Shown: positions 9,141 to 64,000 of the stretch, piece by piece
Layout of the letters: every line of letters starts with the position of its first letter
Position numbering within the stretch: position 1 is the first letter of the stretch
Source of the DNA: Romanomermis culicivorax
Taxonomy: Eukaryota; Nematoda; Enoplea; Mermithida; Mermithidae
DNA: 64,000 bases
Direction: 5' to 3'
NCBI GenBank assembly: GCA_963922205.1
Contig: CAWUHX010000031.1
Location: 558,001-622,000 of the forward strand
The notes under the pieces: generated by a model
The model's input: only the letters and a program-made list of their open reading frames with translations
What the model was told of the DNA's origin: nothing
Database searches by the model: none
Program-made: the position numbers and the translations under genes

Positions 9141-9141
9141 C

Positions 9142-39178: not shown

Positions 39179-39788
39179 GTAAAACTTACAGAGTGAATTC
39201 TATACCACATGTTATATAAAATGACTGAATTAAATAGATCCTGCACAATCAACTTAGTTCTAGGAAAACTTTGTGCCATAGCTTTTTTCTAATAAACTGA
39301 ATATTTTAAATGTCAATTTTCTACAGTTGATTGATGTTTTATTAACACTAAATTTAGTAAAAAAGTTCAACGAGTTGGAAGCACACATGTGTGAGGGGGA
39401 AAATGAGGGTGCAAACTACCCCAAGAGTTTTGAAACTGGAAAATTTTGCGTTAAAAGAAAATTTTTGGCCAGCTTTTCTCAATCTGCTGTTCAAAAAAAC
39501 GTAAAAAAACAAGGGTCCATCCAAGTGCCTTCCTCCAATTTTTGAATAAGCACATTTGTGATTGGAAAGTGTGTTGATGCACTCAGCTGCAGAATATACT
39601 TTTCCACAGACATGGAAAATTTTTTAATGAGAAGGAATGAAAATCCCTTATTAGAAAACTGAATTTTTTTTAACTTTGACCCAAGTTCTCAAAAATCTAG
39701 TCCACTTCTTTTTCTAGCTTGGCAACTATCCAAGCAAGTATATTCTCCTTTTTTTTGGCCCATTAGAGCATTTTCTAATGAACCAGTC

Positions 39789-40045
39789 CACCTCTTTTTA
39801 GTGGGCCTTGGCCATGCATGAAAACCTTTGTGGAAGCACATTGAAGTTTTAAATTTAGTCATCTTCACATCAAAAAAACAATAAAAACAATCTTAAAGCT
39901 ATAAATTCTCACTTTTGGTAAAAGTAAAATATGTCTAAGCTGCATAGAACTTAAATCAAATTGTAAACAAAATGTAAAGTGGCCATTTCCATTCAATTCA
40001 TCATGATCAAGAACCCCTCAACCCAAAAAGAACACTGAAATATCT
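39789..40045. mobile_element. F foldback copy F2, inner arm part (left of gypsy)
   Basis: This segment matches 60185-60430 of F1 (landmarks CCACCTCTTTTTAGTGGGCC, GCATGAAAACCTT, CATCTTCACATCAAA) and continues, after the gypsy element, at 53706. The join of the two flanks minus one ATCT restores the F1 sequence order. Confidence 0.7.
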
Positions 40046-40878
40046 TGTCAGAGGGTCAATTCCTCTGACCTTTGGTCCTCTAATTACATCATTTTATTTT
40101 CTAAAGTTTCTTTATTGCTAAAGTGTTTTCATTTATTCTCAGGTAAACAAACCGATAAAACGGTTTGTGTCACTCATATTTTTGGTCTAAAATAAACAAA
40201 TGGTTGGCGCAAATGTTTTGCATATCACTTGCAGGTCGATGTTAGACGCGCGACAGCGTTTTTATTCATTCTCGTTTTTTCTTATTATTATTATTGTGAA
40301 AAATATTCTCGTCTGGAGACTCACCTCTCCCTTGTGTATTATTGGCGTCTGCAACGTAGCATTCGGACGCTGTGTTATTTGGACGGTGGTGATGAAGGAA
40401 AGGATCGTCGTTTTGTTTATTTGTATTTCGTGATACGCGCCGCGGGCGAATTTGAGTAGTAACGCGGCCTGAGACGTTTTCGACGTTCCATTTTGAGGAA
40501 AGGAACCAGTGAGTGGTTGTTTGAGTTAGTTCACTTATTTTTGGTAGAGTTTCAGCTTAGGCCGTGGCCTGAGAGATCCCATTGGCCCTGTGGCTCGTTG
40601 CTCAGGGACAAGTCAGAAGGATCAGTCGACTAGGGAGGTTGTTGGCGTTAGTGTTTATATTTTCGGCACTCTGCACCTTTGTTTCGTACTTACATTCCTC
40701 ATTGTATTCCACTACCTGTTGTGTTTTGCTCACCAATAAACGTTCACGTACATCAAGTCTCAACTCACTGCAGTAGGAGTGAAATTAGTACCGGGTTAGC
40801 ATCAGGGGCCGTACCAGATTGGATCTCCCAAGAACCGCAGGTAGGCAGCCGAGGGCATACGAGCACTTAAATACGACA
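40046..40878 (+). repeat. 5' LTR, 833 bp
   Basis: It starts TGTCAGAGGG and ends AATACGACA, identical in length to the 3' LTR. The first bases form a hairpin (GTCAGAGG and CCTCTGAC around a 7-base loop), and a second perfect hairpin (ACAAACCG and CGGTTTGT) lies at about 40147-40168. A TATA-like TTTATATTTT lies near 40651, and an AATAAA poly(A) signal is at 40735. That places the transcript start near 40680, with a short R of less than about 100 bases. Confidence 0.95.
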
Positions 40879-40902
40879 TTGGTGACTTGTACAGCTACAA
40901 AG
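40879..40902 (+). promoter_or_regulatory. Primer-binding site and candidate splice donor
   Basis: Directly after the LTR comes T-TGGTGACTTGTACAGC. The TGG complements a tRNA 3' CCA, so this is the expected primer-binding site; I did not identify the tRNA. At 40902/40903, CAAAG|GTAAAA is a fair splice donor, seven bases before the gag start codon at 40910. A donor here would allow gag-pol to be skipped. Confidence 0.6.
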
Positions 40903-40909
40903 GTAAAAG

Positions 40910-43900
40910 ATGAAGAAAGTATCGAAGCCGAAATTAACGATACGGAAGCAACCTGGACGACGGCCGAAAGTAACATTATCGCAAACGGAATTGACTAAAG
41001 AGGATCACGATGAACGGATGGCAAATATGGAAGCAACGATCGAACAAGTAGCAAAGAAATTTGCGAATTCACCCGATGACAGCAACAAAGATCAGACTAT
41101 GGACGCAGAGACATATGATTATGCGGATCAGGGGATACAGACGTCCTCTGGTTCAGTATCATCCTTCGAGAAGATTAATGTAACTCCGAAAACGAATGTG
41201 GTATCATTTCATAATTCGAAATACACGCCTACAATACCGGAAATCGACGCAAAAATTGGTATCGAAACGAAACCGAGGAATGAAACCGAAAGACCGACGA
41301 AAGGGAATTTGCAGGATGTGGCCACTTTAGCCATCCTGGAATCAATGCAAAGAGCAGTGGATAAATCAACAAATGCCGTTAATGTGGAAAGAACGAAAGC
41401 AGCGCTCCGGGAACAAGAAATATTAGAACAACTTATGCAAGAAAGAGCAGAGAGAAAATTATTGGAAGAAAAGTTACGAGAACAGGATCAACAAAATGCG
41501 AGAAAGATAATGGAAGAGGTCGAAAAACAAATGCGGGAATTGATGAGGAAAACGGACAAGAAGCTCGATGAAAGAATGTCGAATTATGAAAATACAGAAA
41601 TACTTCAGTCTGAACCGGTTAAAGACCATTTAGACAGAAGTTTAGAAAGAAAATTAAATTGGTTTGAAAATCATCTCGCCCAGGCACAGGCTCAAGGTGC
41701 GCAGCATCGGAGGATGGAAGATGAAATACCAACGACGTCATGGAATCGCGGAATGGAACAACCTGTGTCTGGAAGTATAAATCGAAATCCGCAAGATTAT
41801 GGACGATATTGTGAAGATCCCGAGAAAAGAATCAAGATAATTTTGGGTCGAATGAAGAATAAAGAAATATCGGATAAAATGGAGGCCGCAGAGATACTCA
41901 ATTTTTTCGCCTGTTTGGAAGGCACATTCAAGCCTGAAGATACGGAAGACCTTAGAATTGAAGTACTTTGGCGATGTTGCGATTTTGAAACTTCGACATA
42001 CGTGGATAAGAATAGTAGCTATGAAGAAGGAAAGGCAAGCATGATAAGAATGATTGCTCCCAAAATGGACACTCCTGCACTTAGAAGGGAGTTACATGAT
42101 ATGAAAAAACGAAAAGGGGAGACGACAAAGGATTTTCTACGACGAATAAAAACTTATGTTCATTTATTGAATTACGAAAAAACGGAAAATGAACGGAATA
42201 GAATTGTTATCGAAACGTATTTTCACAAGGCTCCAGTTTACGTCCAAACTCGAATGGAGGGTCGGCTTCACGAATTCAAAAATATCGCCTCTTTGGCGGA
42301 ATTCGTAAACAAATTGAAAGCCGATACGACGGCCTGGAAGGAATTTAGCGAGGACCAAGAAGACGGCGAAGATGATCGGTTGAATAGAGTCTATGAAAAT
42401 AAAAGATTTAATAATTTACAATTCCGTCCTCAGGATAATAATGCTGGTCAACAACAACAGATTATACGGCCTCAGCAAATTTTCCCGCCGCCACCAGCAT
42501 TTCAAACCCCTTTATCACAACAGGATATTATGAAAATGGTTAATGAAGCAATTAGGAATCAGGGCCCTCAAACTCTTAATCGTTGGGGAGTCAATAATAA
42601 TCCTAATAATGTACCATATAATAATAATTTACCTGATAGAATTTTGGGAAATCCGTATCGCCGACCGTATTGTACATACCACAAATCGAATAGTCATTCG
42701 TCTGAAAATTGTTTTATCCTGCACCCGGAATTGATCCAACCAATGGATCAAGGGAGGTCGTGGAATCGCGGCAATAATTTTTATAATCGAAATTTTGATC
42801 ATCGTGGCGGCTTTGTAAATCGTGGAAGAGCAGGATTTGCGAATTTTGGCCAACGAGTGCCATACCACAATAATAACGTCGAGCATAATCCGAATGTGGC
42901 ATATTATTACCGCCAAAATAGCGCCCCGCAGCCACCGCCAAATGTTGTACCGGTAACGCCAACGCAACCGGTGAATAACCCTCCGAATAATTCCGTAAAT
43001 GTCATAAATTCACAAGAGGCTAAAAAACAAGATAAGCCAGAAATTATAGCATTAGATGGAGTTTTGATAGAAAACTACGAGTTAGGCTTGGGGAACGTTA
43101 TCAATTCTACTTCAGAGACGAAGCCTAGACTCGCCAATGATAACGAGCACCTATTTTTGGAAAATTTTCGCAAATGTCAACCGTTATTGATACCCGTTAG
43201 GATACGCGGAGAAGAATTTAAAGCCCTAATCGATACGGGAGCGCAGTCTAGCTTTATGAGGACAGATACAGCATCCAGGCTACTGAATACGCCCAAGACA
43301 AAATTCCCTATCTTAAATTCAGTAGTAACAGCCGTCGGAAAACGAGTGACAACATATGGTCCTACATTTGTGTACGTTGGAACCGGTTTTGGAAATTTTC
43401 TGGCCAGATTCGCGTTACTGGATAACCTAAATGAAGGTATTATATTGGGCCTAGATTTTCTAACCCATCCTAGTATACAGGCGTCTATCGATTTTCGAAA
43501 CGGCCACATACGTCTAGCAAATGTAGAGAAACAAATTATTAGTGAGACATTATTCGACGATGCGCAAATACCGTCCCGTTTACCAATTCCTACGAATCCA
43601 ATGGTTCTGGATTATGTACCTTTACAAGAAGAAGTCAAAGAAGAAGATCTACCTGAGTTAGAAAGTGACGAGGATCAAGAACAAGTAATGCGAATTACTG
43701 AAATGAACGAGGAAACTTTTATTTGGACGAAAAATGGGACATATATTCCCCCAAATACCACTTCTTTTGTGCAAGCGGTGGTGTGGCCACAGAAAGATTG
43801 GGCAAAGGGTCCCATAGTGGTAGAAGAAACGGGGAAAGATACCTTATTTGACATCGATGCCTCAATCGTGGACGCTAGAGACAACAATTTTCGTATCCTA

Positions 43901-46900
43901 CTAATAAATGAGACAAACAAAGGAATCAAACTGCGCAGCAACGAGTTGATAGCCAAGTCTAAAACGAAGTTCGTGGGGCCAGAATTTGACGAAAAAATAC
44001 ATCAACTGCAATCGGAGCCTCAAACTCAATGGCAAATCGAACCAGAATTCGTCAAAATTGTTACGCAGTTGGTAAAGGAATCGAGTGTCGATAGAGAAGG
44101 GCAACAACAGCTTATGAATGTCCTACTCAAGCATAGGCAGGCATTTAGCATGAAGAACGACCCTTTAACAATGACCCACGAAGCGGAGCATAAGATCGAT
44201 ACAGGAGATGCGCTACCTGTCCAAAAACACTACTGGAGAGCTCCAATTATGCAAAGAGATATAATTCGAGAACATGTGAAAGATATGATGGAAAAGGGTG
44301 TCATCGAGCCTTCTAGAAGCCCTTGGGCTGCGCCATTGTTTTTAGTGGGCAAAAAAGATGGCACATGGAGACCAGTAGTCGACTACAGAGGAATCAATCA
44401 AGTGACAAAAGACGACAAATTTCCGATACCGCGAATAGATGATTATTTAGATGCGCTGGGAGGAGCACGGTACTTTTCCACTTTGGATTTAAAGTCTGGG
44501 TATTGGCAGGTACCGATGCACTCCGAATCAAAAGAAAAAACAGCATTTATATGTCAAGAAGGTCTGTTCCAGTTCAAGGTGATGCCGTTCGGTTTAAAGA
44601 ATGCTCCCGCGGAATTTCAACGACTAATGGAACGAATTTTGTACCCATACGTATGGAAAATATGCCTAGTATATATCGACGATGTCATAATTTTTTCAAA
44701 AACCGTCGAAGAGCATATAGAAAATTTGGAGACAATATTTCGATGTCTAACAAACGCGAACCTCACACTAAAACCTGACAAATGTTCCTTTATGCCAGCC
44801 AGTGTGAAATTCTTAGGCCACATATTGGACAAGAATGGAATGTCAGTAGATCCACAAAAGATAGAAGCAGTAAAAAATTTCGAAGTACCCAAATCCATCA
44901 AGCAGCTGCAAAAGTTCTTGGGATTAGTGCAGTGGTCTAAACGTTTCATTCACAATTTAGCCTTTATCGCCCAGCCCTTATTTAAAGCCCTCGCAAAGAA
45001 AAATAGGAAGGAAAAGTTTGAACTTTCAGAGGAGCAGTTAGCAGCTTTTGAAAGTGTAAAGAATGCCCTAATGACGGCACCCTTCCTTCGATACCCAGTA
45101 TTTGACGGGTCGGCAAGATTTGTAATTCAAACAGATGCCTCAGGAACAGCGGTAGGGGCAATTTTGTATCAGGAAACGGAAAGTGATCGATGGACAATAG
45201 CTTACTCGAGTCGAGTTTTAAACGACGCGGAAACAAGGTATTCAACGACAGAAAGAGAATGTTTGGCAGTAGTTTACGGGTTCAAGCAGTATAGGCATTA
45301 CGTGATGGGATTTAGGGTCACAATCAGGACAGACCATAAACCACTCACGTGGCTCTCCGCAGAGAAACAACAAAATCAAAGGTTGTTAAAATGGGCTTTA
45401 TATCTTGGCCAATTTAATTATATATTCGAATACGTAGCCGGACGTGAAAACGCCTTCGCAGATTTCTTATCACGGTCCAAAGAAAAGGAAAAGACTCGAA
45501 ATAAGAGACAAGAAACAAAGGAAGAAATCGAAGAGAAGAAGTTGAGTACGGAACCCGAATGCATGGCAGTAACTCGAGCCATGACGAGGCAAATGCTTGA
45601 ACCCGAGACTCAGGAAACATTCATTGATCCCCCACCGCCGACCCAACAAGAAATAGATCAAACACCGAAGGAAGTGAAAAAAGATTCCGAATTATTCTCC
45701 CTGGAATTAGTTAAGAAACAACAACAATTGGATCCGAAGTTGGTGGACATTTTTCGGAACGTTGGTGAAAATAGTTCGAAAAAATACTTTAATAGTTTTC
45801 ACTTAGAAAACGGAGTATTATACCGCGAAAATGCCCATGGAAAAAGCCAACTAGTGATCCCATCAAGACTTAGACACCTCATCTTACATCAATATCATGG
45901 CGATACATTAATGGGGCACCAGGGAATAGATAGAATTATCGCCGCGATAGGAAACAAGTTTTGGTGGCCAAATATGGAAAACGACATTATTAAATGGATA
46001 AAATCCTGCGTCGTTTGCCAACTGTGCCGCCCCATAGCAAATCCGATCCAACCACTTAACCCAATACCCGTCTCGTACCCTTGGGAGATAGTAGCAACCG
46101 ATGTGGTCAGTATTTCGCCCCTTCGAGAAAAAAGACCATACGTTATTGTATTTATGGACTATTTCACGAAATGGGTCGAAGCAAAATGCATCCCAGATCA
46201 AAAGGCCGACACAATAGTGAAGGCATTTATGGAAAAGGTCATTTATACACACGGAACACCGAAACACTTGCTGAGTGACCAAGGCTCAGCGTACATGTCC
46301 GAGTTAATGCGCAACGTGTGCGATCTCTTAAAAATAAAGAAAATAAATACAACACCATACCACCCGCAATGCAATGGTATGGTGGAGAGATTCAATAGAA
46401 CATTAATAGAGCAAATTAGGAGAGTCGCAATAACCGACCCGGACGATTGGCCACACTATCTCGAGCAAATTTTATTTGCATATCGGATTACGCCGCACAA
46501 AACAACGAAAAATTCCCCCCATAGCCTACTGTACGGACACGAGGCAAGGTTTCAATTAGATAATGAGATAGCGAGGCCAATAATTATCCAGAATAATTAC
46601 GATACCTACAGATACATGTTAACGGAGCACCTCCTTAACACGTATAAAATCATAAATGAAAATCATAAAAAATCCGCGGCCGAAAGAAAACTACAGTATG
46701 ATAAGAAGGCTCGCGAAAAGACGTTCCAAACGGGAGAACTTGTTCTCTACCAGAAGGGAATTATCAAAGGAAAGGCCGACACAACAAACGACGGTCCGTA
46801 TGAAGTAATTGAGACATCGAATTTAGAAAAAAATGTCATTAAAATACGTCGCGCTGGGAAACCAGATTCGCGCGTACAAATAGTTTCTGTAAATCGCGTA

Positions 46901-46942
46901 ATGCCTTTTGTTACGCGAACGCCCGATTTTTACTGTAACTAA
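40910..46942 (+). CDS. gag-pol: Gag-Pol polyprotein, 2010 residues
   Basis: One uninterrupted frame. Gag: a Glu/Arg-rich helical region (about 130-240), a retrotransposon Gag core (about 300-480), and an Asn/Pro/Gln-rich part with a [14 protein letters not shown] zinc knuckle (about 587-600, spacing C-x2-H-x4-H-x4-C). Protease: IDTGAQ with Asp775, then [11 protein letters not shown]. Reverse transcriptase: [29 protein letters not shown] at 1255-1258. RNase H: QTDASG near 1408, [10 protein letters not shown]. Integrase: an HHCC zinc finger (H-QYH...C-VVC), then Asp1731, Asp1790 and Glu1826, an exact D,D35E. The tail has a DGPYEV module and no chromodomain. All catalytic residues are present, so it looks functional. 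The ATG at 40910 is the first in the leader. No frameshift separates gag from pol, so Gag excess must come from another mechanism or be absent. Confidence 0.97.
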
Positions 46943-47341
46943 CAATTCATTTTTATCGTTTTTTGTGTGCGTTTTGTTCGGATTAATTTTATGTGTATTT
47001 TCTAATGCCCTATGTATTGTATTTTTTCTAACCTTTTCCCCTTTCTTCTTTTTCAATTTTTAATTGTACTGACTTATTTTTGGCAACTTTATGGCAAGTT
47101 TTAGGCATTTTCCAAAAAATTACGACGCCGGAAAATTTTTAATGGGCGAAATAATATTTTTTCACGCGCTCAGTGTGAAAAAATTAAATGTTTATAAGTC
47201 CCGGGAAAGTCTTCCCCGAATCATTGAAGTCGTGAAGCCGAAGAATTATGGAATTATTTTTTAGATTTCATTTGCAAAGCGTTAGTATATTAGTAATTTT
47301 CGTCGATTGGAAATTTCAAGAAATTCGAATTCGAACGCGAT
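46943..47341 (+). promoter_or_regulatory. Spacer with candidate subgenomic splice acceptor
   Basis: A 400-base noncoding spacer, T-rich at first. ATTATTTTTTAG at 47253-47264 is a good acceptor and would join the leader exon ending at 40902 to 47265. From there the first ATG is the one at 47342. The arrangement parallels the spliced env RNA of retroviruses and gypsy-type errantiviruses. Confidence 0.45.
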
Positions 47342-47426
47342 ATGGCAACGTCCAGTATCGTCGAAATTGATAGCACCTTCGGGCAGCCTCAAGATCGGCA
47401 AGATAATACGAATTTTCAACTTAGTA
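47342..47426 (+). CDS. Leader exon of ORF2 (28 codons)
   Basis: ATG at 47342 opens MATSSIVEIDSTFGQPQDRQ and continues to a GTAAGT donor at 47427. The exon leaves one extra base (A). The exon at 47657, after GATTAG, starts with TG and then the ORF2 codons. A+TG makes an in-frame Met, so splicing gives a continuous protein. Without splicing, the leader stops at codon 45 and ORF2 has no ATG before residue 79, which would cut the exonuclease domain. Confidence 0.65.
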
Positions 47427-47656
47427 GTAAGTATCGGAAAGGTAGAATATATGTTGAAATTTTTCGGAATAGGACTCTAAGTTGACCGGCCGGCAATTTA
47501 TATGCCGAGGATTTTGGGTGTTTGAGAGCCTGATCAACTCCCCTTCGTCCAAATTTATTCTTGTGCATTTGAGTCGTTTTTGTTTCGAAATTATTGTCAA
47601 AAATTGTAGTTAGAAAATTGTGTGAAAATTTTAAGATTACAATGTTCGAAGATTAG
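47427..47656 (+). other. Predicted 230-bp intron in ORF2
   Basis: It begins GTAAGTAT and ends GAAGATTAG. The phase fits exactly. Another acceptor such as TTGTAG at about 47607 would not give the ORF2 frame without stops, as far as I can see. Confidence 0.6.
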
Positions 47657-50600
47657 TGCGTTCAACGGATATTTCAAATTATTTCACGTCGTTGTTCGGT
47701 GTGCCTCATGCGGCCATCGAAGAACCATTATTTTTGGCGCCCGAAAATTTGAAAGCATTTATTAGGGCGATAAACAATTCGAAGTTTCGAGGACGGATAG
47801 TCATAGCGTTGGATACAGAAAGTGGGAGGAAGCCAAAAACCCCAGGATCGAAGCCTAGCGACGCATTGCGACTCTTAACGATTTCAACCATGTGCGGAAA
47901 GAACTTCATAATCGATTTGAAATTTTGGGACAAAGAACATTTCCACAAAGTATATGGAACAATATTTCGCCGCGAAAACATCATCGTCGGTTTTCATATT
48001 CGAGAGGACATCACGTTAGTTTTGACTAAATTCGGATATTTAGATCAAGAAAAAGAACTAGTGCGGAAAAGACGGGACAACATAGATTATATTTTATCGT
48101 GCTGCGTTTACGATTTGGAGATTGTGTTGGCAGAAATGAAGGACAAGCCGAAAGCCAGAATAGTCGGAATCAGCCCCGAAGGTCTCAATTTGAAAGCCCT
48201 CATGACGGAAATTTTGTTTTTATGGGCCGACGCCTTCAAGATTTCGTGGGGACAGTTGAGTTCCCTAGAGTTTCGACAGCTAATGGAGGCAGATAAGTTA
48301 AACATAGAAGTTTTGAGATACGCGACGCTCGACGCGCGCGGGTCTCTTTTATGTTTCTTAGCGTTACTTCGATATGGATTCGCGAGCGATATTCAAAATT
48401 GCTTTCAATTGTACCCACACGACACGATGGAGCCGGAATTGATCTCCGATCTAGCACGAAGATTTAGAGACACATTCGAAGGTAGATATGCGGATCCAGA
48501 GTGGAAAGGAGCATATGGAGTAGAAGAAGTAACGGATAACACCAACGCGTTGTATTTCATGATGCGTGGAGAAGCTATCGCGACGTATAAATTGTCGGAG
48601 GAAATGGCGCCCGGGACTTTTCATTGTCCTCCGCATTTCTCCAATACGGATATTGAGCCACAGCCAGTGCCCAAGGGTTGGTTCCCGTGGATAGAGAGAA
48701 AAGTGAAAGCGTCAAGGAAAAGAAAGGATACTGACGATTCCGAAGAAGCACCGACAAACGATTGGGATTTAGAGGATATCTTGGCGGCACGACAGTTCGG
48801 ACGGCCAATTGAACCCCGGGAAATGGAAATGAAAAAAGGAAAATGGCCTAAGGAAGTGATCCACTTCACTAATGTTATACGAGAACAAGTTTCGGCACTT
48901 AAAGACCATTATCACTCCAAAATCAACCGATCAATCGTCCCCATAGTCAAAGATTTGTACGAGAAAAACGTAAACCCAATCATTTACTTCTTGTGGCCTC
49001 ACTCGGCGCAAGAGTGGAAAGCCTGGGTTCCTGGATTCACGTCTGGTATGTGGGCCTCTGTGTGGAGAACCGAACAGGAACGGGTTGAATTCATGAAGTG
49101 GATGGGCCAGGATCTTTTGAACGACAAAATTACCGATCAAATGGAGCAGATGATGGAACGGTATCCGAAGATACGTACGCAGAAATCCATCCAGAACACT
49201 TTTTGCGTACTACCTATAAGATGGATACCGCGATCCTGCAAAGAACCTATCCAAGAAATAAAGACGAATTTGCGCGATAATTCTATTTATTATATGAATT
49301 GTAACTTTTATAATTTGTTTCATTTTCTGAATATCCATGCCGCGAGTCAGAACCTCATTTATTGGAATGTTTCCGCGTCCATATTCGAGGCTAAGGACCT
49401 ATGGGCCCCTAGCACCTCTGCAACTTTTAAGTCTGTAACTAAGTGGGACGATTCAGATCTGATTCCGCAAGTAGAAGTTGTGGTTCCCGCTAGCCAGGGC
49501 CCTATGGAAGAAACTTCGAAGGAGCAGACTGTAACAGTGCCCTCTACAATAGATAATTCGAATGTTTCAGGTACCGAGATGGAGCAAGAGAAACCCGTAG
49601 TTGTGGTCATCACGGATCCCCCTATCGCCAGTACACCCGCTGAGGGGAGTACAGGTGTTGAAGAGGAGGAGAAACTCATGGAAATAGTCGAAACTGAAAA
49701 AGAAACCCAACCCGATTTGGAGAAATTAACCGACCAGATAAAAGAAATGAAAGAAAAAATAGAAGTTTTGGAAAAAGAAAAGTACGGGAAGGCCGCAATC
49801 GAATTAGCAAAGCAATTAGAAGATGTCAATCCCGAGGAAGAAGAAACGAGCGAAGAACCCTACGTGGAGGTGGTATCAGAGATCGGTAGCGATGACGAAG
49901 AAATTACGGATAACGTTTTGCCCACGCCGCCGGTTTATGCAAAAGCCGGTGGGCAAAATGTAGAGAATATCAAGAATCCGGGAAAATTTGCGAAGGTGAT
50001 GCAATCGAAAAGACAGGCTACAGAGAAACGGATAGATCGCGAAGAGAATAAAGCCGAACTGGACAAAGTAAAGAGCGGGCAGTTTCAACAGCCAGCCGGA
50101 AATCCGAATGATAAAGTCAAATATCGACGAGGCCTCGGGAAACGGGGGCAAGTTCTTAACAAGGCCTTGAAGGAAGGAAAGTACGTCGTCGATTTCCAGT
50201 ATGGGAGAGTATCTCTGTCAAACCCATGTGTCCAGAAGTATCTCGCGCACATGGATCCCACTTTGGATGAGGAGGTAGCTCTAATGGCGACAGATCTGAT
50301 AAACCGTGTGTACGACGAAGCCGGGATCGAAATTGAAACTATACGATATTACGAACTACAGTTTCACGTTCTACAGGCGAACTTGCCAGAAAAATTGTGG
50401 AGTATTTTCGAGCTTCAATTAACCGAATGGAGTACTAAGCGATCTGCGGAGAAAGCTTATGAAGCCGCCGTATGGGCTTGTGCGTGTCTATTTATGAAAT
50501 TGTCGAGATTGGGCAGGATTCCCCAAAATTTCGCTGGATTCCATTACCAAGCCCATGCGTATGTTACGATGAAATTGCGCCGCGAGTTCAACGCTAGGCA

Positions 50601-51708
50601 AGGAGGAGCAGGGAGCAATTTTCATACGTTATACTCCTCATGTCAGGCAAAGGCAGCGGGGTTAGCGTATACGATTGCTAAGGCCGTGCTACAAGACAAG
50701 AAGGACCCTGAACCCAAATACGCGAATATACAAGTTTGGAAGAAGGAAATTGACAATACGGACCCCAGAATACGGTTTTGGGAAGTTATCGATCGAAAGA
50801 AGGCTCGCGATATATTGGAAGTTCAAAAAGCCTTAAAGAAAAGAGTGGGATACCGAGTCAAGCATGCCCACGCTAGGCCTGCGACCAGTAAGGTATCCAA
50901 ACGATGGATTAGAAAAGAAAGTGATACACAAAGAACGGAGAAATCGAAAACGCCAGAAAATGACAGAAAAAGAAGGCACGAAAGTCGACACAGAGACGAA
51001 AGTCGTCACGAGAAGTCGATGTCGCGAGAAAAGAAACGCAAGGAAGCTGAAGAAGAAAGTTGGCGTAAAGAGATCGATGATTACGAAAGGAACTACGAAA
51101 GGAAGGAAAAAGAAAAGAGAGAAGCGGCAGAACGCAAAGATAGCAGAGAGTCTCAGAGTAGAAAAAGAACATCGGCATACTACCAACACGATGATAGAGT
51201 GGACGTGGCCTACTCCAGTCGAAAGACTTCACTGGATAGGTGTAGGGTCACCGAAACAACTCAGCAAGGAGTGTCAATGGCCGATCCAAACGCGATGATG
51301 CAAGCCCAGCAGCAGCAATTACCTTATTTACCGCCGAATTATCCGGGATTGCCGATGGTGGGTGTTGATTGTATAAACCGCCCTCTTTTTTCAGGACAAT
51401 TATTCCCGAATACAATGGTGCCGCCGCCGGCACAGTTTCAAATGCCGCAGTTTCCGGTCATGCAATTCCAGGCCGGGCAACCCCAATTTTACCACCAGTT
51501 CTTAGTCCCGCCGGGGATGCAGATGCCTCCGCCTACGATGATTCCGCCGGTGCGTAATGTGCAAACCGAGGAAAGGATGGACATCCCGGGGACGTCTACG
51601 AGTACGAGACCGCCGTCGACCGAAAATCCCGATTATATTTCGCCGTTGAAGCGAGATATTGGTATTGGTCAACCGGGACGGGACCATAGCGGTCATAGAA
51701 GGAAGTAA
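47657..51708 (+). CDS. ORF2: DEDDy 3'-5' exonuclease fused to a long unknown region
   Basis: 1,349 codons to TAA, numbered here from 47656. Residues 45-240 are a DEDDy exonuclease: IALDTES (Asp53, Glu55), IIVGFHIREDITLVL (Asp118), CVYDLEIVLAE, GLNLKAL, and RYATLDA (Tyr222, Asp226). This is the full D-E-D-Y-x3-D set of the RNase D/WRN/Mut-7 group, which trims RNA or single-stranded DNA with two metal ions. Residues 245-650 are unrecognised; 685-720 form a coiled coil (EKLTDQIKEMKEKIEVLEKE); 850-1060 are mostly helical and unrecognised; 1084-1175 are extremely rich in Arg, Lys and Glu; 1215-1350 are Pro/Gln/Met-rich. There is no signal peptide or membrane segment. DEDDy ORF3s are known from bdelloid rotifer LTR and Penelope-like elements, so the association has precedent; this copy and its large extension are not something I recognise. 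The long open frame indicates selection or youth. Confidence 0.85.
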
Positions 51709-52860
51709 AGTTTTTATGTTTCAGATGACCCCGCTCTCCGTGAGGTCATTATAAAGATAATTATTTCGTTCTGTAAAATTTTTCGATATTTCAAAAGTTA
51801 CCTATTTTTTCTGTTTTGAGCGTCTGTATTACAAAATCGAAACCGGTTGTGCCACCTTTTTATGCCTTAAAGTTGCCTCTTGTACTAATCTCAAATTGTT
51901 TCATTTATTTTTTCGTTTGTGTTTTGTTCGAGATCTGCACGGAAATATATCGTATTTCTTTTTTTTGCGAATCTGGAAATTGCCAAGCAATTTTTTGTAC
52001 CTTCTTAAATCGCGGGTATTTTTGTGTTCCTTTCCGAAAAGTCACCAATTGACATCACCCAAGGATAGCAGGCTTTGCGCTGCCATTTTTCATATTTTTT
52101 CCATCTTTTTTCCAAAACACATTTTCATTCTAAAATTTTTTCGTGGCACAGACCGTGTTATGGGTTTAAGTTTACCTCTTAATAAGGCAAATTCACTTTA
52201 GCAATAAATACCTTAAATATTTTTGGTTCAAAATCTAGACAGCCAAAGGGCCAGAGGATTTGGTTTTTCGGGCATCCTTTCTCCCTGGGGGCAGATAATA
52301 CCAAAGGCGTTGGGGGGGCCAGTGTCCGGCCAAGGGGCCAGAGGAGCAACGGCGGCGGAATTTGGAAAGTCTTGCGGGCTCTCCACGAGCAACAACCCCC
52401 CCTCCGGAGAGGACGGAGACGAATGCCACAATCCGTGATGGAGGAGCCGCCGATACTACATACATCGACGGCAGTGGGGAGCAGCCCACAACCTAACTCG
52501 GGCACCGCGGGGGTCGCCGCCGATTAAACGTTTTTATTTTTCAATTTGGTCAAATTCGGCCCGAGTGCCGCGAACGCTATTCGTTCGAACATTTTTTATT
52601 TTATTCGGGACCACGAGCCCACGGGGCATTTTAGTAGTGAACCTTGTAGCGTCGGGGGTAGCATCCGGCGCAATTGGCCCAAAGTTGTGAAGATACCGTT
52701 CGATACGGACATTTTATTTTTTATTGTTTATAATTGCGTCAACGGCGCGTAGCGTCGTTGTTTGGAACATTTGGAGGCGTCGAGCGTCGGCGTCGAGGGT
52801 CTGGGGCCCTTGGGGGACCTCCTGACTTTTCCCTTCGCTGGCGGGAAAAGTCTTGCCTTT
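51709..52860 (+). other. 3' noncoding part of the gypsy element
   Basis: 1.15 kb between ORF2 and the polypurine tract. The first 500 bases are T-rich. From 52230 it becomes GC-rich with repeated GTCGAGCGTCGG/GGCGTCGAGGG motifs near 52775-52800. Small frames here are not convincing. Long 3' noncoding tracts may hold RNA export or packaging signals, but nothing specific is visible. Confidence 0.5.
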
Positions 52861-52872
52861 GGGGGGGAGGGA
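52861..52872 (+). promoter_or_regulatory. Polypurine tract
   Basis: GGGGGGGAGGGA ends exactly at the first base of the 3' LTR, as expected for the plus-strand primer of reverse transcription. Confidence 0.9.
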
Positions 52873-53705
52873 TGTCAGAGGGTCAATTCCTCTGACCTTT
52901 GGTCCTCTAATTACATCATTTCATTTTCTAAAGTTTCTTTATTGCTAAAGTGTTTTCATTTATTCTCAGGTAAACAAACCGATAAAACGGTTTGTGTCAC
53001 TCATATTTTTGGTCTAAAATAAACAAATGGTTGGCGCAAATGTTTTGCATATCACTTGCAGGTCGATGTTAGACGCGCGACAGCGTTTTTATTCATTCTC
53101 GTTTTTTCTTATTATTATTATTGTGAAAAATATTCTCGTCTGGAGACTCGCCTCTCCCTTGTGTATTATTGGCGTCTGCACCGTAGCATTCGGACGCTGT
53201 GTTATTTGGACGGTGGTGACGAAGGAAAGGATCGTCGTTTTGTTTATTTGTATTTCGTGATACGCGCCGCGGGCGAATTTGAGTAGTAACGCGGCCTGAG
53301 ACGTTTTCGACGTTCCATTTTGAGGAGAGGAACCAGTGAGTGGTTGTTTGAGTTAGTTCACTTATTTTTGGTAGAGTTTCAGCTTAGGCCGTGGCCTGAG
53401 AGATCCCATTGGCCCTGTGGCTCGTTGCTCAGGGACAAGTCAGAAGGATCAGTCGACTAGGGAGGTTGTTGGCGTTAGTGTTTATATTTTCGGCACTCTG
53501 CACCTTTGTTTCGTACTTACATTCCTCATTGTATTCCACTACCTGTTGTGTTTTGCTCACCAATAAACGTTCACGTACATCAAGTCTCAACTCACTGCAG
53601 TAGGAGTGAAATTAGTACCGGGTTAGCGTCAGGGGCCGTACCAGATTGGATCTCCCAAGAACCGCAGGTAGGCAGCCGAGGGCATACGAGCACTTAAATA
53701 CGACA
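52873..53705 (+). repeat. 3' LTR, 833 bp
   Basis: Same length as the 5' LTR. I find six substitutions (for example TTTTATTTT/TTTCATTTT near the start, GCAACG/GCACCG, GGTGATGAA/GGTGACGAA, AGCATCAGG/AGCGTCAGG) and no indel, about 0.7 percent. Confidence 0.95.
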
Positions 53706-54400
53706 ATCTTGGTTTACACACAAAACAATTTTTTATGTGAAGTGACTGTGTACATTGAATACCCCATGGTCAGCAGCCTCTTCCACCAAAAATTGCAGAA
53801 ATAAATTTGTTCACATTCAATATAATGTTGTGTTTAAAGTGATCACATTGATTAAATTCCTCATTGTGGAAAAACCCTTTCACACAAAAATCATGAAAAT
53901 ACACTTGTTTACACCTGAGTGTTTTTTAGTGTAAAATGATGCACCCATTGAATTACTGGCAGTTGAAAACGTCTTCCATCAAAAAAATACAAAAATATGC
54001 TTGTTCACAACCATAATATTTTTTTGTGTAAGGTGAGCCCATTCCTTGAATTCTCTGTGGTGCAAAACTCTTTGCCCCATACAATCACAAAAATATGCTT
54101 GTTTACACCTGAGATAATTTTTCATGTAAAATGACTGCATCCATTGAATTCTCAGTAACTGAAAACTCCTTCCTCCAAAAAGTCACATGAGTACTTTTAT
54201 TTACATTAATGAGTTTTTTGGGTAAAGTGAAAGCATCCATCCAATTTTCCATTATCAAAAGCCTTTACATCCCAGAAATCCCAATAATGCTACTGATTCA
54301 ATTGAAACTGCAGAAAATTCTGGCACGGTAGTGCATTATGCTGCAAAAAATTATTTTTTTGAAGCCGTTAGTATTATATAACAAAATTTTATGCTTTTTA
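53706..54400. mobile_element. F foldback copy F2, satellite arm (right of gypsy)
   Basis: Six to seven tandem units of about 98 bp, in the same orientation as the right arm of F1 (TTGAATTC-like and TTTACAC-like landmarks every 95-100 bases). They are followed by the outer block with AATGCTACTGATTCAATTGA, matching AACGCTACTGGTTCAATTGA at 61139-61158. Confidence 0.75.
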
Positions 54401-55941: not shown

Positions 55942-56624
55942 GAAAACATGCTCCACAATAAAGTCTGGTGAATTAAGGGTTTGTGTGCTGCCAAACTATT
56001 GATGCTTCCAATTTATAACATTACTTCCACTGAATTGGCAAACATGTTAATATTTATGTTGTTTAAATGTTATGTGGAATTTTTGTGTAATAGACTTTTA
56101 ATGTGAAAACCTGTATCATATGCCTTAAGTGTGTATTGTAGTTGTTACAAACAGCACACTAAGCAGAAAATGTATCATAAATGTGTGTATGTCACCTAAT
56201 CCGATAAAATACAATTTTTTTGTACTTTTAGCAGAAAGGGTGGCTCTTGGTTAGCTTACTTACTGTACTATTAAACATTTATATTTTAAATACATGCATT
56301 TAATTTTTATAATCTCAGGTTTTGTTATATTCTCATCTGTAATGATGTTATGTTATGAATGTTTAAAAAATCATTTATTTTTGGGTCTACTATAAAATTG
56401 GATATTGTAATCATGTGGAATATCTTGTCACTATGCATTATCCAGGTGAAAGTGCACAGCTACAACAGGTTCTATTATTTGTTAAATCTTTTATGTTCTG
56501 GAGATTTCTTAAGATATGAAATTTTCTTTTGTTGCTCATTATTTATAGGGAGTAAAAATTGTACATCATATGTGAGTGTTAAATTTTAGAATTTATAGGT
56601 AAAGTTTCAGAGTTATGTAAAGTA
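55942..56624. other. Intergenic, no gene
   Basis: AT-rich sequence downstream of the unknown gene. The 56359-56589 frame is Phe/Ile/Leu-rich and not supported. Confidence 0.4.
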
Positions 56625-57000
56625 TCCATAGAGTATGCACAGGTTCAAATTCACATGTATAGTACGCTTACAGTAAGAACAAGTTCGAATTTACATTTTA
56701 ACTATGTCTACAGTGAGAAAAGTTAAAATTTATATGTACAGTATGCCTACAGTACGAACAAGTTCAAATTTACATGCAAAGTATGCCTACAGTATTAACA
56801 AGTTCGAATTTACATGCAAGATATGGCTACAGTGTGCAAACAAGTTTGAATTTACATGCAAAGCATGCCTACAGTGAGAAAAGCTCGAATTTACATGCAA
56901 GATTTGCCTACAGTAAGAAACGTTCAAATTTACATGCAAAGTATGCCTACAGTACAAACAAGTTCGACCTAACAGGTAAAGTATGCCTACAGAATGATCA
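56625..57000. repeat. 40-bp tandem repeat, about nine copies
   Basis: The unit is roughly AGTTCGAATTTACATGCAAA followed by GTATGCCTACAGTA-GAACA. CTACAG(T) recurs at 39-42 base intervals from 56671 to 56990, with unit length mostly 39-40 and one of 42. Open frames on both strands are by-products of the periodicity. Confidence 0.85.
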
Positions 57001-57233
57001 TATGTAAAATTATGTTGCATCAGTGTTAATTAGATTTTTATATTTTATTACTACGTTTTTGGTATACATTCTACTATACCTTGTTTTTTAGGAACACGGC
57101 TACAGTAGGGTTTCCTATTGCAAGTATATATCTCGACTGTGTTAACATTTTTGTAGCTGCTGTTCCCGAAAAAAACAAGCTATAGCTAAAGTTCAGTCAT
57201 TATTTAATGTAGTAAGACACGTATATACAATAC
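57001..57233. other. Short spacer without feature
   Basis: Nothing recognised. Confidence 0.4.
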
Positions 57234-57786
57234 TAGTTTATTAGAAAATGCCCTGATGGGGCACAAAAAAAGAAGAATATACTTGCTTGGATAGTTGCCG
57301 AGCTAGAAAAAGACTAGATTTTTGAGAACTTGGGTTAAAGTTGGAAAAAATTCACTTACGTTATATTGGATTTTCATTCTTTCTCAAAAAAAAATTTGTC
57401 ATGTCTGTGAAAAAGTATATTCTGCAGCATCGTGCATTTTGTCCGTCCCCTGGCATCAACTACAGTAAAATTTTTCTATATAAAAATTATATGCACATGA
57501 CTTCACATGTAAAGAAATGGTAAACCAATAGCATTCTAACTCCTGACCGATTCAAACTTCTGCCTCTCACAATAGCTGAAAAATGGTGATGTAGGCATAT
57601 TATAGTCATAATCTCGACATGAGCTCGTTATAGTCCTGACGACATTCAAATTATACAGAACTTGAGATCAAACCGAGTCACCTTTTTGTTCGAGACTATC
57701 TGGCTTAGACCCCTTTAGCGAACTGGGCCTTGGTTACTTACGGAGTGAATTCTATGCCATGTGTTATATAAAATGAGTGAATCATG
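57234..57786. mobile_element. E-family element, internally deleted copy E2
   Basis: It begins with the terminal repeat (57234-57430), then the CCCCTGGCATCAACTACAG side of the interior, then a short form of the TGGGCCTTGGTTAC block. It jumps to ACTTACGGAGTGAATTCTAT, which in E1 lies after the SINE (39183). The opposite terminal repeat is missing. Confidence 0.65.
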
Positions 57787-58075
57787 GGTGGCGTGATAGC
57801 GTCAACTTATAATATACTTGGCCCGAATTTCATGTCCCCCTTCTAGAGCCAAAACGGTAGCTAGAACCTTCCGGTTTTCTTCATAATTTCAGACATAGGG
57901 GCAAACTATGGGATGCCTTTTGTCATTTCGCCTCTATCTGCAAGTCGTGCTCGGTGGGGCCCCAAAAACATGCAAAAAACGCACTTTTTAAGGGCCCCCA
58001 GTTCTGCCATGCTCTGCAATGGGTGTGCCATATGCAAGCTCCATACTTGGGCATAAGCATCTTGGAGGTGCAATC
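57787..58075. repeat. Dispersed block shared with 25262-25560
   Basis: Shares TATAATATACTTGGCC, GAGCCAAAACGGTA, GGGGCAAACTATGGG and TCGGTGGGGCCCCA with the other copy, in the same orientation, next to E-family sequence in both places. It may be an element of its own or part of a larger E/F composite. Confidence 0.6.
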
Positions 58076-58289
58076 TCAAATGCGAATTTTCATTTTTTTA
58101 AATCGGCCTCAATTCAATTATACAGTGATCCAAAGTCCCAAAAACCGCGAAATTTGGCAATTTTGTTATATAAAACTTACGGCTTCAAAAAAGTATTTTT
58201 TGCAGCAAAATGCACTAACGGTGCCAGAATTTTTTGCAGTTTCAATTGAACCGGTAGTTTTATTGGGATTTTAGGGGTGTAAGGGTTTT

Positions 58290-59215
58290 CGATCATGGGG
58301 AATTCAATGGACGCAGTCACTTTACAAAAAAATCAATATGAATCTAAATAAAGGTATTCCTGCGATATTTTGGAGAAAGGGTTTTCGATCATTGGGAATT
58401 CAATGGATGCGACCAGTTTACACAAAAAAATATCCCAGGTGTAAACAGGCGTATTTTTGCAATTTTTTGGGGAAAGGGGTTTTTGACTGCGGGGAATTCA
58501 TTAAATGCGGTCGCTTTACACAAAAAACTATCCCGAGTGTAAACAAGCGTATTTCCGTGATTTTTTGGCGGCAGGGGTTTTCGACAGTGGGGAATTCAAT
58601 AAATGCGGTTACTTTATACAAAAAATTATTCCGGGTGTAAAAAACGTATTTTCCTGATTTTTTGATGGCAGAGGTTTTCGACCACGGGGTATTCAATGGG
58701 TGGTCACTTTACAAAAAAAGCCATTAGGAATGTAAATAAAGGTATTCCCGTGATATTTTTGAGGTAGGGGCTTCCGAGCATTCAGAATCAATGTATGTGG
58801 TCACTTTACACAAAAAATTATCCCGTGTGTGAACAAACGTATTTTTTTAATTTTTTGGTGGAAAGGGATTTTCGACCGCGAGGAATTCAATGGATGTGAT
58901 CACTTTACACCAAAAATTATCCAAGGTGGAAACAAGTGTATTTTTGCGATTTTTTATGGGGAGAGGTTTCCAGCTATGGAGAATTCGATAGATGCAGTCA
59001 CATCACACAAAAAATTATCCTGAGTGCAAACAAACGTATTTCCGCGATTTTTGGGGGAAATGATGTCTGACCATGGGGAATTCAATAGATGCAGTCACTT
59101 TACACAAAAAAATTTTTCCGGTGTGTGAACAAAGGTATTTCTGCGATTATTTAGGTCTCGGGGTTCTTCACAATGGGGAATTCAATAGATATGGTCACTT
59201 TACACTCTTTTTACA
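58290..59215. repeat. 98-bp satellite, about ten units (left F1 arm)
   Basis: GAATTC or a one-base variant recurs at 58300, 58396, 58494, 58592, 58689, 58784, 58883, 58981, 59078 and 59178, so the unit is 95-100 bases. Each unit has ACTTTACACAAAAAATTATC, GTGTAAACAAGCGTATTT and GGGGTTTTCGAC landmarks. Confidence 0.9.
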
Positions 59216-59385
59216 ACGTGTTTTAAGTACGATGCGGTTTACTTATCTTTTACTTGTACCCAAAGCGAGAATTCATAGCTTTTCTATTGTCTCATTGATG
59301 TGAAGGTGACCAAGTTTAAAACTTCAATGTGCTTCTATGAAGATTTTCATGCATGGTTGAGGAGAAAGACAAGAAAGAGTTGGAC

Positions 59386-60184
59386 TACTTTATTAGAAAA
59401 TGCCCCGATGAGCAGAAAAAAGAAGAATATACTTGCTTGGATACTTGCCAAGCTGGAAAAAAGAGCGGACTAGATTTTTGAGAACTTGAGTTAAAGTCGT
59501 AAAAAATTCACAATTGTTATATTGTATTTTCATTCTTTCTCATTAAAAAATTTTCCATGTCCGTGAAAAAGTATATTCTGCAGCTGAGTGCATCAACACA
59601 CTTTCCAACCATACATGTGCATCTCCAAAATTTTTCACAGGGGTGGGACCCTGTTTTTTTGGCTTTTTTTGAGACGAAAAATTCAAAAAAAGTAGGCCAA
59701 CAAATTTTTGTATAACAAATTTTCCAGTCTCAAAACTCTTGAGTAGTTTAAGCCCCCAAGTCCCCCTGACACATCTGTGCTTCCAATCGCGTTGAACTTT
59801 TTTACTAAATTTAGTGACAATAAAACAGGAATCAACTGTGGGAAAATAACACATAAAATCCCATTCAGTTTTTTAGAAAAAAAGCTACAGCATAAGGTCG
59901 TCTTTGAACTAAATCGATTGTGTAACATATATTTAATTCAGTCATTTTTTATAAGACATCGTATAGAGGACAAAATACACGATGCTGCAGAATATATTTC
60001 TCCACAGACTTGGAAAATTTTTTTATGAGAAAGAATGAAAATCCAATATAACGCAAGTGAATTTTTTCCAACTTTAACCCAAGTTCTCAAAAATCTACTC
60101 CGCTCTTTTTTCCCGCTTGACATCTATCCAAGCAAGTATATTCGTCTTTTTTCTGCCCCATCGAGGCATGTTCTAATAAACTAG
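59386..60184. mobile_element. E-family element, short copy E3
   Basis: Inverted terminal repeats 59386-59585 and 59983-60184 flank only 400 bases of interior. The interior includes the AGTGCATCAACACACTTTCC side on the left and a GATGCTGCAG junction on the right. Being at the exact centre of F1, it may be an integral part of F. Confidence 0.7.
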
Positions 60185-60429
60185 TCCACCTCTTTTTAGT
60201 GGGCCTCAGCTATGCATGAAAACCTTCGTAGAAGCACGTTGAAGTTATAAATTTAGCCATCTTCACATCAAAGAAACAATAAAAAACAATCCTAATGCTA
60301 TGAATTCTCATTTTCGATAAAAGTAAAAGATGTGTAAACCGCATAGAACTTAAAACACGTTGTAAACATATTGTGAATTGGCCATTTCCTTTGCATTCCC
60401 CATGATCCGGAACCTGTCAACCCAAAATA

Positions 60430-61130
60430 CTCAGAAACACTTTCGCTTAGACATAGAACATTTTTTTGTGGAGTGACTGTGTCCATTGAATTCCCCATGG
60501 TCAGAAACCTCTTACCGCAAAAATCGCTAAAATAAATTTGTATACATTCAATGTATTTTTGTGTGTAAAGTGGTCACATTCATTAAATTCCCCGTGGTCC
60601 AAAACTCCTAGCCCCAAAATTATCACGGAAATACGCTTGTTTTCACCCGAGATAATTATTCATGTAGAATGTCTTCATTTACATTGTGTAAAGTGGTCAC
60701 ATTTACATTGTGTAAAGTGGTCTCAATGGTCAAAAACCGCTTCCTCCATCAAAAATTCAAGGGAGTGTCTTCAATTACATTGTGTAAAGTGACTGTATCC
60801 ATCGAATTCGCTTCGGTCGAAAACCCCTTCCACCAAAAATCACGAAAATACGCTTGGTTACACCCGGGATAATTTTTTGTGTGAAGTGATCACATTCATG
60901 AAATTCCCCGAGGTCGAAAACCTCTTCCACCAAAAAATTACGAAAACACTCTTGTTTACACCGGAGATAATTTTTTGTGTAATGTGACCGCATCCATTGA
61001 ATTACCCGTGGTCCAAAACCCCTCGCCCCAAATAATCACGAAAATACGCTTGTGTACACCCGGAATAAATTTTTTGTGTAAACTGACCGCGTCCATTGAA
61101 TTCGCTTCGGTCGAAACCCCTTAATCCAAA
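60430..61130. repeat. 98-bp satellite, about seven units (right F1 arm, inverted)
   Basis: Inverse orientation of the left array: TTGAATTC-type motifs near 60495, 60590, 60803, 60900, 60998 and 61098, with TTTTTTGTGTAAAGTGA. A 23-base unit (ATTTACATTGTGTAAAGTGG) is duplicated at about 60678-60722. Confidence 0.85.
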
Positions 61131-61210
61131 AATCCCAATAACGCTACTGGTTCAATTGATCCTGCGAAAAATTCGGGCTACAATGCTGCAAATATTTTTT
61201 TGGAGCCGTA

Positions 61211-62265
61211 ATTTCATTCGCTTTTTTCAAGAGGAAATAAATTCTCTCAAGTGGTAACAAATTTTTTCAAGTGGTAACACCTTTTTTTATTTGGTGCTTC
61301 TTATATTCTGCATACTATAGCGCGTTCGGCAGTCCAGGAGCGAACTTACTAACACATCAATCGTTTTTGCTAATACACATTTTTTTCATACAAACTTGCA
61401 AAAGTGCTCGAAAAAATTTACTCGGTCCATAATTGATCTAAAGACCAGCCGATACAAAATGCAATCTTTCACATTCGATAGAATATTCGAGCAACTACAA
61501 TAACTTTAATATGACTAAAGTTCTACCTCCAACATATCCGGAAATATACACAATTTCTGGGGAGTTTAGTGTATAAAATCAGCCTTAATATCAGAAAGAC
61601 TTTCTTCCTTCATCTTTACTGTCTACTCAGTTACATAGTACGAATTACAAACGTCTCATTACAACATAAAAGGAAAAAATAGAAAACTTCATCAATTTGT
61701 CCAATTTTGAAAATTGTTTGAAAAGTTAGCAAAATAAGCCAAATCTTACTTACTTTTTGATCATTTCTAAAAACTGAAATTTCAAAAAATACGGTTTCAT
61801 ATTACATATATATATATATATATATATATATTATGAACACTGTACATATCCTTGAACATCTTTCACATGAATTTTTCCAATTTCAATGTTTCTTCGCCAT
61901 TTCTGAACGTCTCTTGTTTATTATTTGCGGTCAGCGACATCCGACTTTTCCGTTCACCGCTGATTTTCCGATTGATGGAATTGACTTCAACTCTATTTCG
62001 CCGATTAGACACTCTGAACAGTTCAGCCCAAGTGGGTAAAACCGTCCAAAGCCATGAGCTCTTTTTGCGTGAACATTCGATCCATGATCACTTTTCGGAT
62101 TAGGACCATGACGAAAAGCTATGAAGAAAAAAGTTAGAGAAAGTCAGAATTGGAAGAAGTTCAATATTGACACATTGTCAGTCAGGATGTTGGCGTTTTA
62201 AAGCATAAATCCAACATCTTCATCAACGTTACTCAAAGTTCATTTTCAAACTGTAATTACAAAAT
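61211..62265. other. Intergenic, with a TA microsatellite
   Basis: A (TA)n run of about 13 units spans 61805-61831. Two overlapping frames after it (61833-62103) are unrecognised. Nothing else is seen. Confidence 0.5.
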
Positions 62266-63997
62266 AAAGAATTAGAAAATGCCCCGACCGGGCAGAAAAA
62301 AGGAGAATATACTTGCTTGCTTGGATAGTTGCCAAGCTAGAAAAAAGATCGAACTATATTTTTGAGAACTTGGGTTGGAGTTGGAAAAAATTCACTTTCG
62401 TTATACTGGATTTTCATTCTTTCTCAAAAAAAATTTTCCATGTCTGTGGAAAAGTTTATTCTGCAGCTGAGTGCATCAACACACTTTCCAACCAAACATA
62501 AAGATCTCCGAAATTTTGAGGAGAGTACAAGGCTGGACCTTGGTTTTTTGGCGTTTTTTGAGACAACAAATTCAAAAAAAGTTGACCAAAATTTTTTTTC
62601 GTAACAAATTTTCCAGTTTCAAAACTTTTGGGTTAGTTTGTACCCCCATGTCCTCCCTCACACATGTGTGCTTCTAACTGCGTTGAACTTTTTTGCTAAA
62701 TTTAGCGTCAATAAAACACGAATCAAGTGCGGAAAATTGGCACGTGAAATTTCACTCGGCTTTTTTAGAAAGAAAGCTATATCATAAAGTCTTTTTAAAA
62801 CTAAATCGATTGTGCAAGATATGTTTAATTCACTCATTTTACATAACATATCGCATAGGATTCCTTTTATAAGTTCTACTGATTACTAGCTATAAACAAA
62901 TTTATTCTCTTCTATTTAACTATTCAACAAAATAGCATCATTCACAGTTTTTGGATTTAAACAGAAATTAGCAAAACGAGCGCTTTTTGTGGGACGGCAG
63001 ACGGGAAGCAATTTCTCCCATCTCTGTCGCTCTGGTCCTGATTTCAAAAAAGTCGTAATGTTGCAGTGGGAGTGTGAGTAGGGTCGGGGAGAACCGGATA
63101 CGGCATTTGGCGCACACCCCTAATAGGCACGGCTGAACCAGGAGCATTTTTGTATGCTTTACCTTGTTCGCTCATTTGCAGACCAGTGCCCAATGACTGT
63201 AACCAAGGCCCAGTTGCACTAAAGGGGTCTGAGCTCGAGCTCAACATAATCTCGAACAAAAAAGCGATTCGGTTTGATCTCATGTTCGGTGTATTTTGAA
63301 TGTCGTCAGGATCATAACGAGCTCAATGTCGAGATTATCCCCAACTCGAGCTGTGGGGTTGCAATAACATTTTCCCATCATTTTCATATCATTAAAGCAA
63401 ATAAATATAAAAATGTCTGCAATTCTCAAACTCGAACTTACACTTCAGTAGTAGTTAATCCTGAAGTGAGTACTGTTTGTGCACTGGAAGAGAATACATT
63501 GGACATTGCGATTAGCTAAAATTCAGGATCAGCAATTTAATTCCGATGTTGAGATTATCCTCGTGTTGGGTTAGTGCGCCCAACCTCAGGTTTCTTTATA
63601 GTTCTGAAACTGACTATAATATGCCTGCCTCACTAATTTTCAGCTAGTGTGAGATGCAGGAGTTTCGAATCGGTCGGGAGTTTGGAAGCTATTGGTTTAC
63701 CATTTCTTTACATTTGAAATCATGTGCATATAATTTTCATATAGAAAAATTTTGCTGCAGTTAATGCCAGGGGAACGACAAAATGCACGATGCTGCAGAA
63801 TATACTTTTTTACAGAAATGGAAAATTTATTTTGAAAAAGAATGAAAATCCAATATAACGAAAGTGAATTTTTTCCAACTCCAACCAAAGTTCTCAAAAA
63901 TCTAGTTCGATCCTTTTTCTAGCTTGGCAACTATCCAAGCAAGCAAGTATATTCTCCTTTTTTCTGCCCCATCGGGGCATTTCCTAATAAACTAGTT
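62266..63997. mobile_element. E-family TIR element, copy E4
   Basis: 1.73 kb between terminal repeats 62266-62466 and 63791-63997. Orientation is opposite to E1: the AGTGCATCAACACACTTTCC side is on the left and the TTAATGCCAGGGGAACGAC side on the right. It lacks the SINE present in E1, which shows that the SINE is a later insertion. No transposase is recognised. Confidence 0.75.
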
Positions 63998-64000
63998 CAC

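Follow-up and report, generated by a model that had tools for sequence, protein, structure and literature searches.

The window analysed here is a stretch of 64,000 nucleotides from the mermithid nematode Romanomermis culicivorax (contig CAWUHX010000031.1, positions 558,001–622,000, forward strand). It contains a Gypsy-type long terminal repeat (LTR) retrotransposon with an open reading frame, ORF2, downstream of gag-pol. The best explanation for ORF2, with about an even chance of being correct, is that it encodes a spliced, soluble, RNA-handling accessory protein on a DEDDy exonuclease module, and that the element has been active recently. As listed, ORF2 (47656–51708 of the window, + strand) is open for 1350 amino acids from a GTG start codon at 47656. 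The N-terminal part of the protein would be a DEDDy module, RNase D-like but divergent, and further shared regions and charged regions of low complexity would follow it.

The DEDDy-like region of ORF2

Residues D53, E55, D118, Y222 and D226 of the listed ORF are found in RNase D-like order (Asp-x-Glu, Asp, Tyr-x3-Asp), each where a preliminary description of this DNA had placed it. That description called the region a complete DEDDy exonuclease – the five residues are indeed present, while completeness is plausible only, given weak profile evidence and a structure model of low confidence. A loose pattern of DEDDy spacing was matched by 92 of 20,000 shuffles of ORF2. The six frames of the window contain 34 open stretches of 120 amino acids or more, and ORF2 alone among them matched it. 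Taken alone, the motif pattern is suggestive, not conclusive. A stricter, self-written DEDDy pattern had no match in ORF2 because it admits only Leu or Met at the position of Val122.

When a 260-residue N-terminal piece of ORF2 was compared with the whole Pfam library, the sole match was to PF01612, at residues 30–127 (E = 0.0063, 16.8 bits). The same family was the sole match of one relative of ORF2, P0005 (E = 0.014, 15.6 bits). Neither score reaches the curated cut-off of the family (23.6 bits); some query inputs gave matches below the cut-off and most gave none. ORF2 is not classed as a member of PF01612.

A profile of the ORF2 family was also aligned with five RNase D-like sequences using hhalign. 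D53/E55, D118 and Y222/D226 fell over D28/E30, D85 and Y151/D155 of RNase D, with a score of 26.5 against a mean of 13.4 for 400 column shuffles, one of which scored as high. The N-terminus of ORF2 as a single sequence scored 22.9, the reversed profile 14.5, and six other parts of ORF2 as single sequences 10.8–13.6. Searches of PHROGs, NCBIfam and PDB sequences with ORF2 returned no DEDD match. Weak non-DEDD matches (WipA, Regnase, MglA, SPT16 and others; best E 0.013) were set aside, as no other evidence agreed with them. A genome-contig scan with E. coli RNase D yielded only close enterobacterial relatives, with 80 of 202 matches retained; they played no further part in the analysis. The N-terminus of ORF2 is likely kin to the DEDDy branch of the DnaQ-like (DEDD) exonucleases, but divergent.

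The AlphaFold model of the N-terminal region is of low confidence (pLDDT 46); a single-sequence model of 466 residues (pLDDT 37) was discarded. In this model helices come first, then strand, strand, strand, helix and strand; Asp53 lies where the first of these strands ends. Foldseek found no significant structural match to it, DEDD proteins included; 19 of the best 50 of 436 matches were to EXD2, Egalitarian-BicD, Rrp6, apicoplast polymerase or RNase AS. A fold search of BFVD had no match at E ≤ 0.001, and the best 50 of 510 matches there included two phage DNA polymerase entries and were mostly unnamed or unrelated proteins.

Relatives of ORF2 and conservation of the putative catalytic positions

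A search with the first 300 residues of ORF2 returned 20 relatives, and a profile made from part of them returned 51, including those 20. All 51 are UniRef entries of R. culicivorax, 47–418 amino acids long, and one of them (P0030) is 100% identical to residues 2–99 of ORF2, which places the window in this species or a very close one and bears out the earlier suggestion of a nematode element. Two of the 51 are labelled "3'-5' exonuclease domain-containing". Outside R. culicivorax these searches, which reach proteins similar in length and with five-residue words in common, found nothing at E ≤ 10. A search with full-length ORF2 likewise found nothing at E ≤ 10 among candidates of about 740–2360 amino acids, and no relative was found in viral contigs.

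Three of the 51 gene models (P0017, P0047 and P0048) are fused to gag or pol sequence, so ORF2 accompanies this type of element at more than one place. Many of the models may come from decayed copies. Repeats are reported to make up 68.2% of the long-read assembly of R. culicivorax (PMC10879605).

With P0030 (the identical entry) and positions of poor alignment excluded, the five sites were unchanged in 48 of 52 cases: D53 in 8 of 8, E55 in 6 of 8, D118 in 14 of 14, Y222 in 11 of 11 and D226 in 9 of 11. Background conservation averaged 80% over 207 columns, and the excess at the five sites was not significant (permutation p = 0.15). The unfiltered counts, gaps apart, were 9/9, 8/10, 14/15, 11/12 and 9/12, respectively. 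These data are compatible with selective constraint on catalysis, no more, and they neither establish nor exclude the free variation of catalytic residues among copies that the preliminary description named as grounds for refutation. P0014 and P0040 (two of the eight well-aligned relatives) both have an E55K change and also have neighbouring changes in common, which points to a subfamily whose Exo I motif is broken.

Predicted gene structure of ORF2

A peptide like MATSSIVEIDSTFGQPQDRQDNTNFQLS is found in 12 of the 51 relatives, and in several of these gene models it is followed by NYNVRRL or NCNVRRL and then by STDIF. Joining the GT at 47427 to the AG at 47634–47635 reproduces this junction in the window. 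Because relatives have this 5' exon in common, ORF2 is probably spliced, with its true start upstream of the GTG at 47656 and a predicted protein of 1385 amino acids, in which Asp53 of the listed ORF is residue 88. A first splice guess, with an acceptor before 47657, was dropped for the acceptor giving 47636, in line with the sequences of the relatives. The features of ORF2, with residues numbered as in the listed ORF, are:

47342–47426, +: predicted 5' coding exon, MATSSIVEIDSTFGQPQDRQDNTNFQLS plus 1 nt (putative junction)
47427–47635, +: predicted intron, GTAAGTAT...TTTTAAG, fitting the NYNVRRL/NCNVRRL-type junction of the relatives
47636–51708, +: main exon, including the stop codon
47737–48405, +: DEDDy/RNase D-like region, residues 28–250
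47812–47820, +: Exo I, Asp53-x-Glu55
48007–48009, +: Exo II, Asp118
48319–48333, +: Exo III, Tyr222-x3-Asp226
49453–49995, +: acidic region by composition, residues about 600–780, coiled-coil-like by eye only
49993–50895, +: second stretch, residues about 780–1080, partly common to relatives, with no Pfam family
50893–51255, +: region rich in Arg, Lys, Glu and Ser, containing SR dipeptides and basic clusters
51253–51705, +: Pro/Gln-rich C-terminus

Anatomy of the element

The whole element occupies 40046–53705 of the window. Both LTRs, a 4-bp target site duplication (TSD), a candidate primer binding site (PBS), a polypurine tract and an open gag-pol are present. The LTRs are 99.28% identical, with 6 differences in 833 positions, and a Pfam scan placed the gag-pol domains in the order protease, reverse transcriptase, RNase H, integrase, which fits a Ty3/Gypsy-type element. 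The element is recent and apparently intact, and its description as an intact gypsy element is supported. Its features apart from ORF2 are:

40042–40045: left TSD, ATCT
40046–40878, +: 5' LTR, 833 bp, TG...CA
40880–40889, +: candidate PBS, TGGTGACTTG, 1 nt 3' of the 5' LTR, interpreted by position
40910–46942, +: gag-pol, one ORF of 2010 amino acids
43190–43468, +: aspartic protease domain (PF13975)
44348–44827, +: reverse transcriptase domain (PF00078)
45110–45415, +: RNase H domain (PF17917)
45857–46366, +: integrase zinc-binding and core domains (PF17921, PF00665)
52861–52872, +: polypurine tract, GGGGGGGAGGGA
52873–53705, +: 3' LTR, 833 bp
53706–53709: right TSD, ATCT

The gap between gag-pol and the listed start of ORF2 is 0.7 kb. 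A stretch of 1.16 kb (51709–52872) leads from ORF2 to the 3' LTR; 52143–52208 is an inverted copy (79%) of part of the LTR.

Comparison with known systems

Bdelloid rotifers have DEDDy ORFs, termed ORF3, in the Juno and Vesta LTR retrotransposons and in Athena/Terminon elements (Rodriguez, Kenefick and Arkhipova 2017, PMC5408684); those in LTR elements are also covered by PMC5718144. The 2017 paper states that DEDDy exonucleases were previously unreported in retrotransposons. Its authors propose that the rotifer ORFs process 3' ends and underline that no activity has been demonstrated (PMC5408684), and a similar suggestion is made in PMC6431247. Rotifer ORF3 resembles ORF2 in that it lies 3' of pol in LTR elements, is not an envelope gene and has an RNase D-like DEDDy domain – a likeness of layout. 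In contrast to ORF3, ORF2 has a nematode host, a predicted spliced product of ca. 1385 amino acids and long extra regions. PMC5408684 describes the rotifer DEDDy-like ORFs as having no coiled-coil and transmembrane domains, while one region of ORF2 looks coiled-coil-like by eye.

CERV is the post-pol protein of Cer1, a Gypsy/Ty3 element of Caenorhabditis elegans. Translated from a spliced mRNA, CERV was shown by experiment to be required for export of Cer1 genomic RNA (PMC10309623). Like CERV, ORF2 is a large, lineage-specific post-pol ORF that has no envelope resemblance and is predicted to be expressed from a spliced mRNA. CERV differs in its length of 517 amino acids and its H, M and G domains, the last of which resembles inactive GTPases, and the paper (PMC10309623) nowhere uses the word "exonuclease". 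The RNA export role is experimental for CERV, whereas for ORF2 it is a proposal.

The exonuclease homology domain of Egalitarian binds RNA, and its putative catalytic residues are dispensable (PMC13186709). Egalitarian is the top DEDD-like structural neighbour of the low-confidence ORF2 model, among the best 50 of 436 Foldseek matches, and the title of an Egalitarian structure entry also refers to I-factor RNA. The I factor is a retrotransposon. Egalitarian itself, unlike ORF2, is a cellular protein with LOTUS-like domains, and the likeness between the two comes from that low-confidence model. The cellular RNase D family (RNase D, Rrp6, EXD2, Mut-7; PF01612) has the five residues in the same order and aligns in register with the ORF2 profile, whereas ORF2 is below the PF01612 cut-off and has, in the hhalign alignment, more residues separating Exo II from Exo III.

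Possible functions of ORF2

Because of the precedents of CERV, Egalitarian and the rotifer DEDDy ORFs, an RNA-handling accessory role is favoured for ORF2, which may work, or may once have worked, as a 3'-5' exonuclease. The protein, translated from a putative spliced mRNA, would most likely act on the element's own RNA, with the DEDDy module binding RNA 3' ends or stem-loops. Trimming of 3' ends is probable, as the five metal-binding/catalytic positions are intact in the window copy, and the basic, SR-containing tail may direct the protein to nuclear or ribonucleoprotein compartments. Proofreading of cDNA by ORF2 is possible, with no specific support in the data.

Several other explanations can be weighed against this one. 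The DEDDy-like fold might serve RNA binding only, as in Egalitarian, so that ORF2 would export or localise unspliced genomic RNA like CERV without catalysis. Such a carrier is a doubtful possibility, as all five residues are intact in the young window copy, D53, D118 and Y222 are unchanged in every well-aligned relative (8/8, 14/14 and 11/11), and the structure model is of low confidence. It is improbable that the N-terminal region has an unrelated, lineage-specific fold that the five residues fit by accident. Matches to the loose motif in 92 of 20,000 shuffles, the sub-threshold Pfam score and the absence of a significant structural or PDB sequence match all agree with a chance resemblance, but Pfam, hhalign with its shuffles and the Foldseek ranking are separate weak signals that point to one superfamily and one register.

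There is a slight chance that the target is the host, with ORF2 shielding the element from silencing by trimming or destroying small RNAs of the host, or the precursors of these. Mut-7 and Nibbler, which are RNase D-like, function in small-RNA pathways, and the five residues are intact in the window copy of ORF2, but no sequence feature of ORF2 points to small RNAs. A role of mut-7 in silencing is mentioned in PMC5408684. An envelope-like protein for cell-to-cell passage, which the location 3' of pol might suggest, is scarcely credible: hydropathy predicts no transmembrane or signal-like segment in ORF2 (highest 19-residue mean 1.29), and the Pfam scan found no envelope family. An envelope role was rejected on these grounds, in agreement with the preliminary description, which had noted no envelope features.

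The favoured reading, an RNA-handling protein on a DEDDy module, can be extended, though to a proposal that is tentative and rather unlikely as a whole. Nematode Gypsy elements would carry a post-pol RNA-handling factor, and the mermithid factor would be a captured exonuclease fold partly turned into a carrier of genomic RNA. It would be the element's counterpart of Egalitarian and CERV, and a single genome would contain both active and inactive (E55K) versions of it.

Surroundings of the element

Other Gypsy-type pol fragments are found at 9095–11363 and 16391–17768 (both − strand), with 24–60% identity to the gag-pol of the element, and a short, distant reverse transcriptase-like piece at 27454–27924 (− strand) has 27% identity to its pol. 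There is a tandem-like array at 58270–59210, with a unit of ~98 bp and copies mostly 60–80% alike, and an array with a period of ~40 bp at 56562–57000. The flank of the 5' LTR (39199–40028) is a repeat that recurs several times to the right of the element, at about 57200–64000, in direct as well as inverted orientation; the element was thus inserted among older repeats. Rfam at its gathering cut-offs and a tRNA scan had no matches in the whole window.

Novelty and significance

No DEDDy ORF in a nematode retrotransposon was found in the open-licence literature, a search that covered few subscription papers and no preprints and went by listings, not by every paper in them. The pairing of LTR elements with DEDDy ORFs is already on record for rotifers, so the nematode ORF2 reads as a variant of a known theme. 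What looks new is the nematode host, the predicted spliced, multi-region protein of 1385 amino acids and the coexisting E55K versions. With ORF2, LTR elements carrying a DEDDy-like ORF would be on record from two animal phyla, which suggests that such ORFs were captured repeatedly or drawn from a shared pool. ORF2 would also link the rotifer ORFs, which are still unexplained, to CERV, a nematode post-pol protein of known role. Since intact and E55K versions apparently occur together in one genome, the question of whether retroelement DEDDy proteins are nucleases or RNA binders becomes testable.
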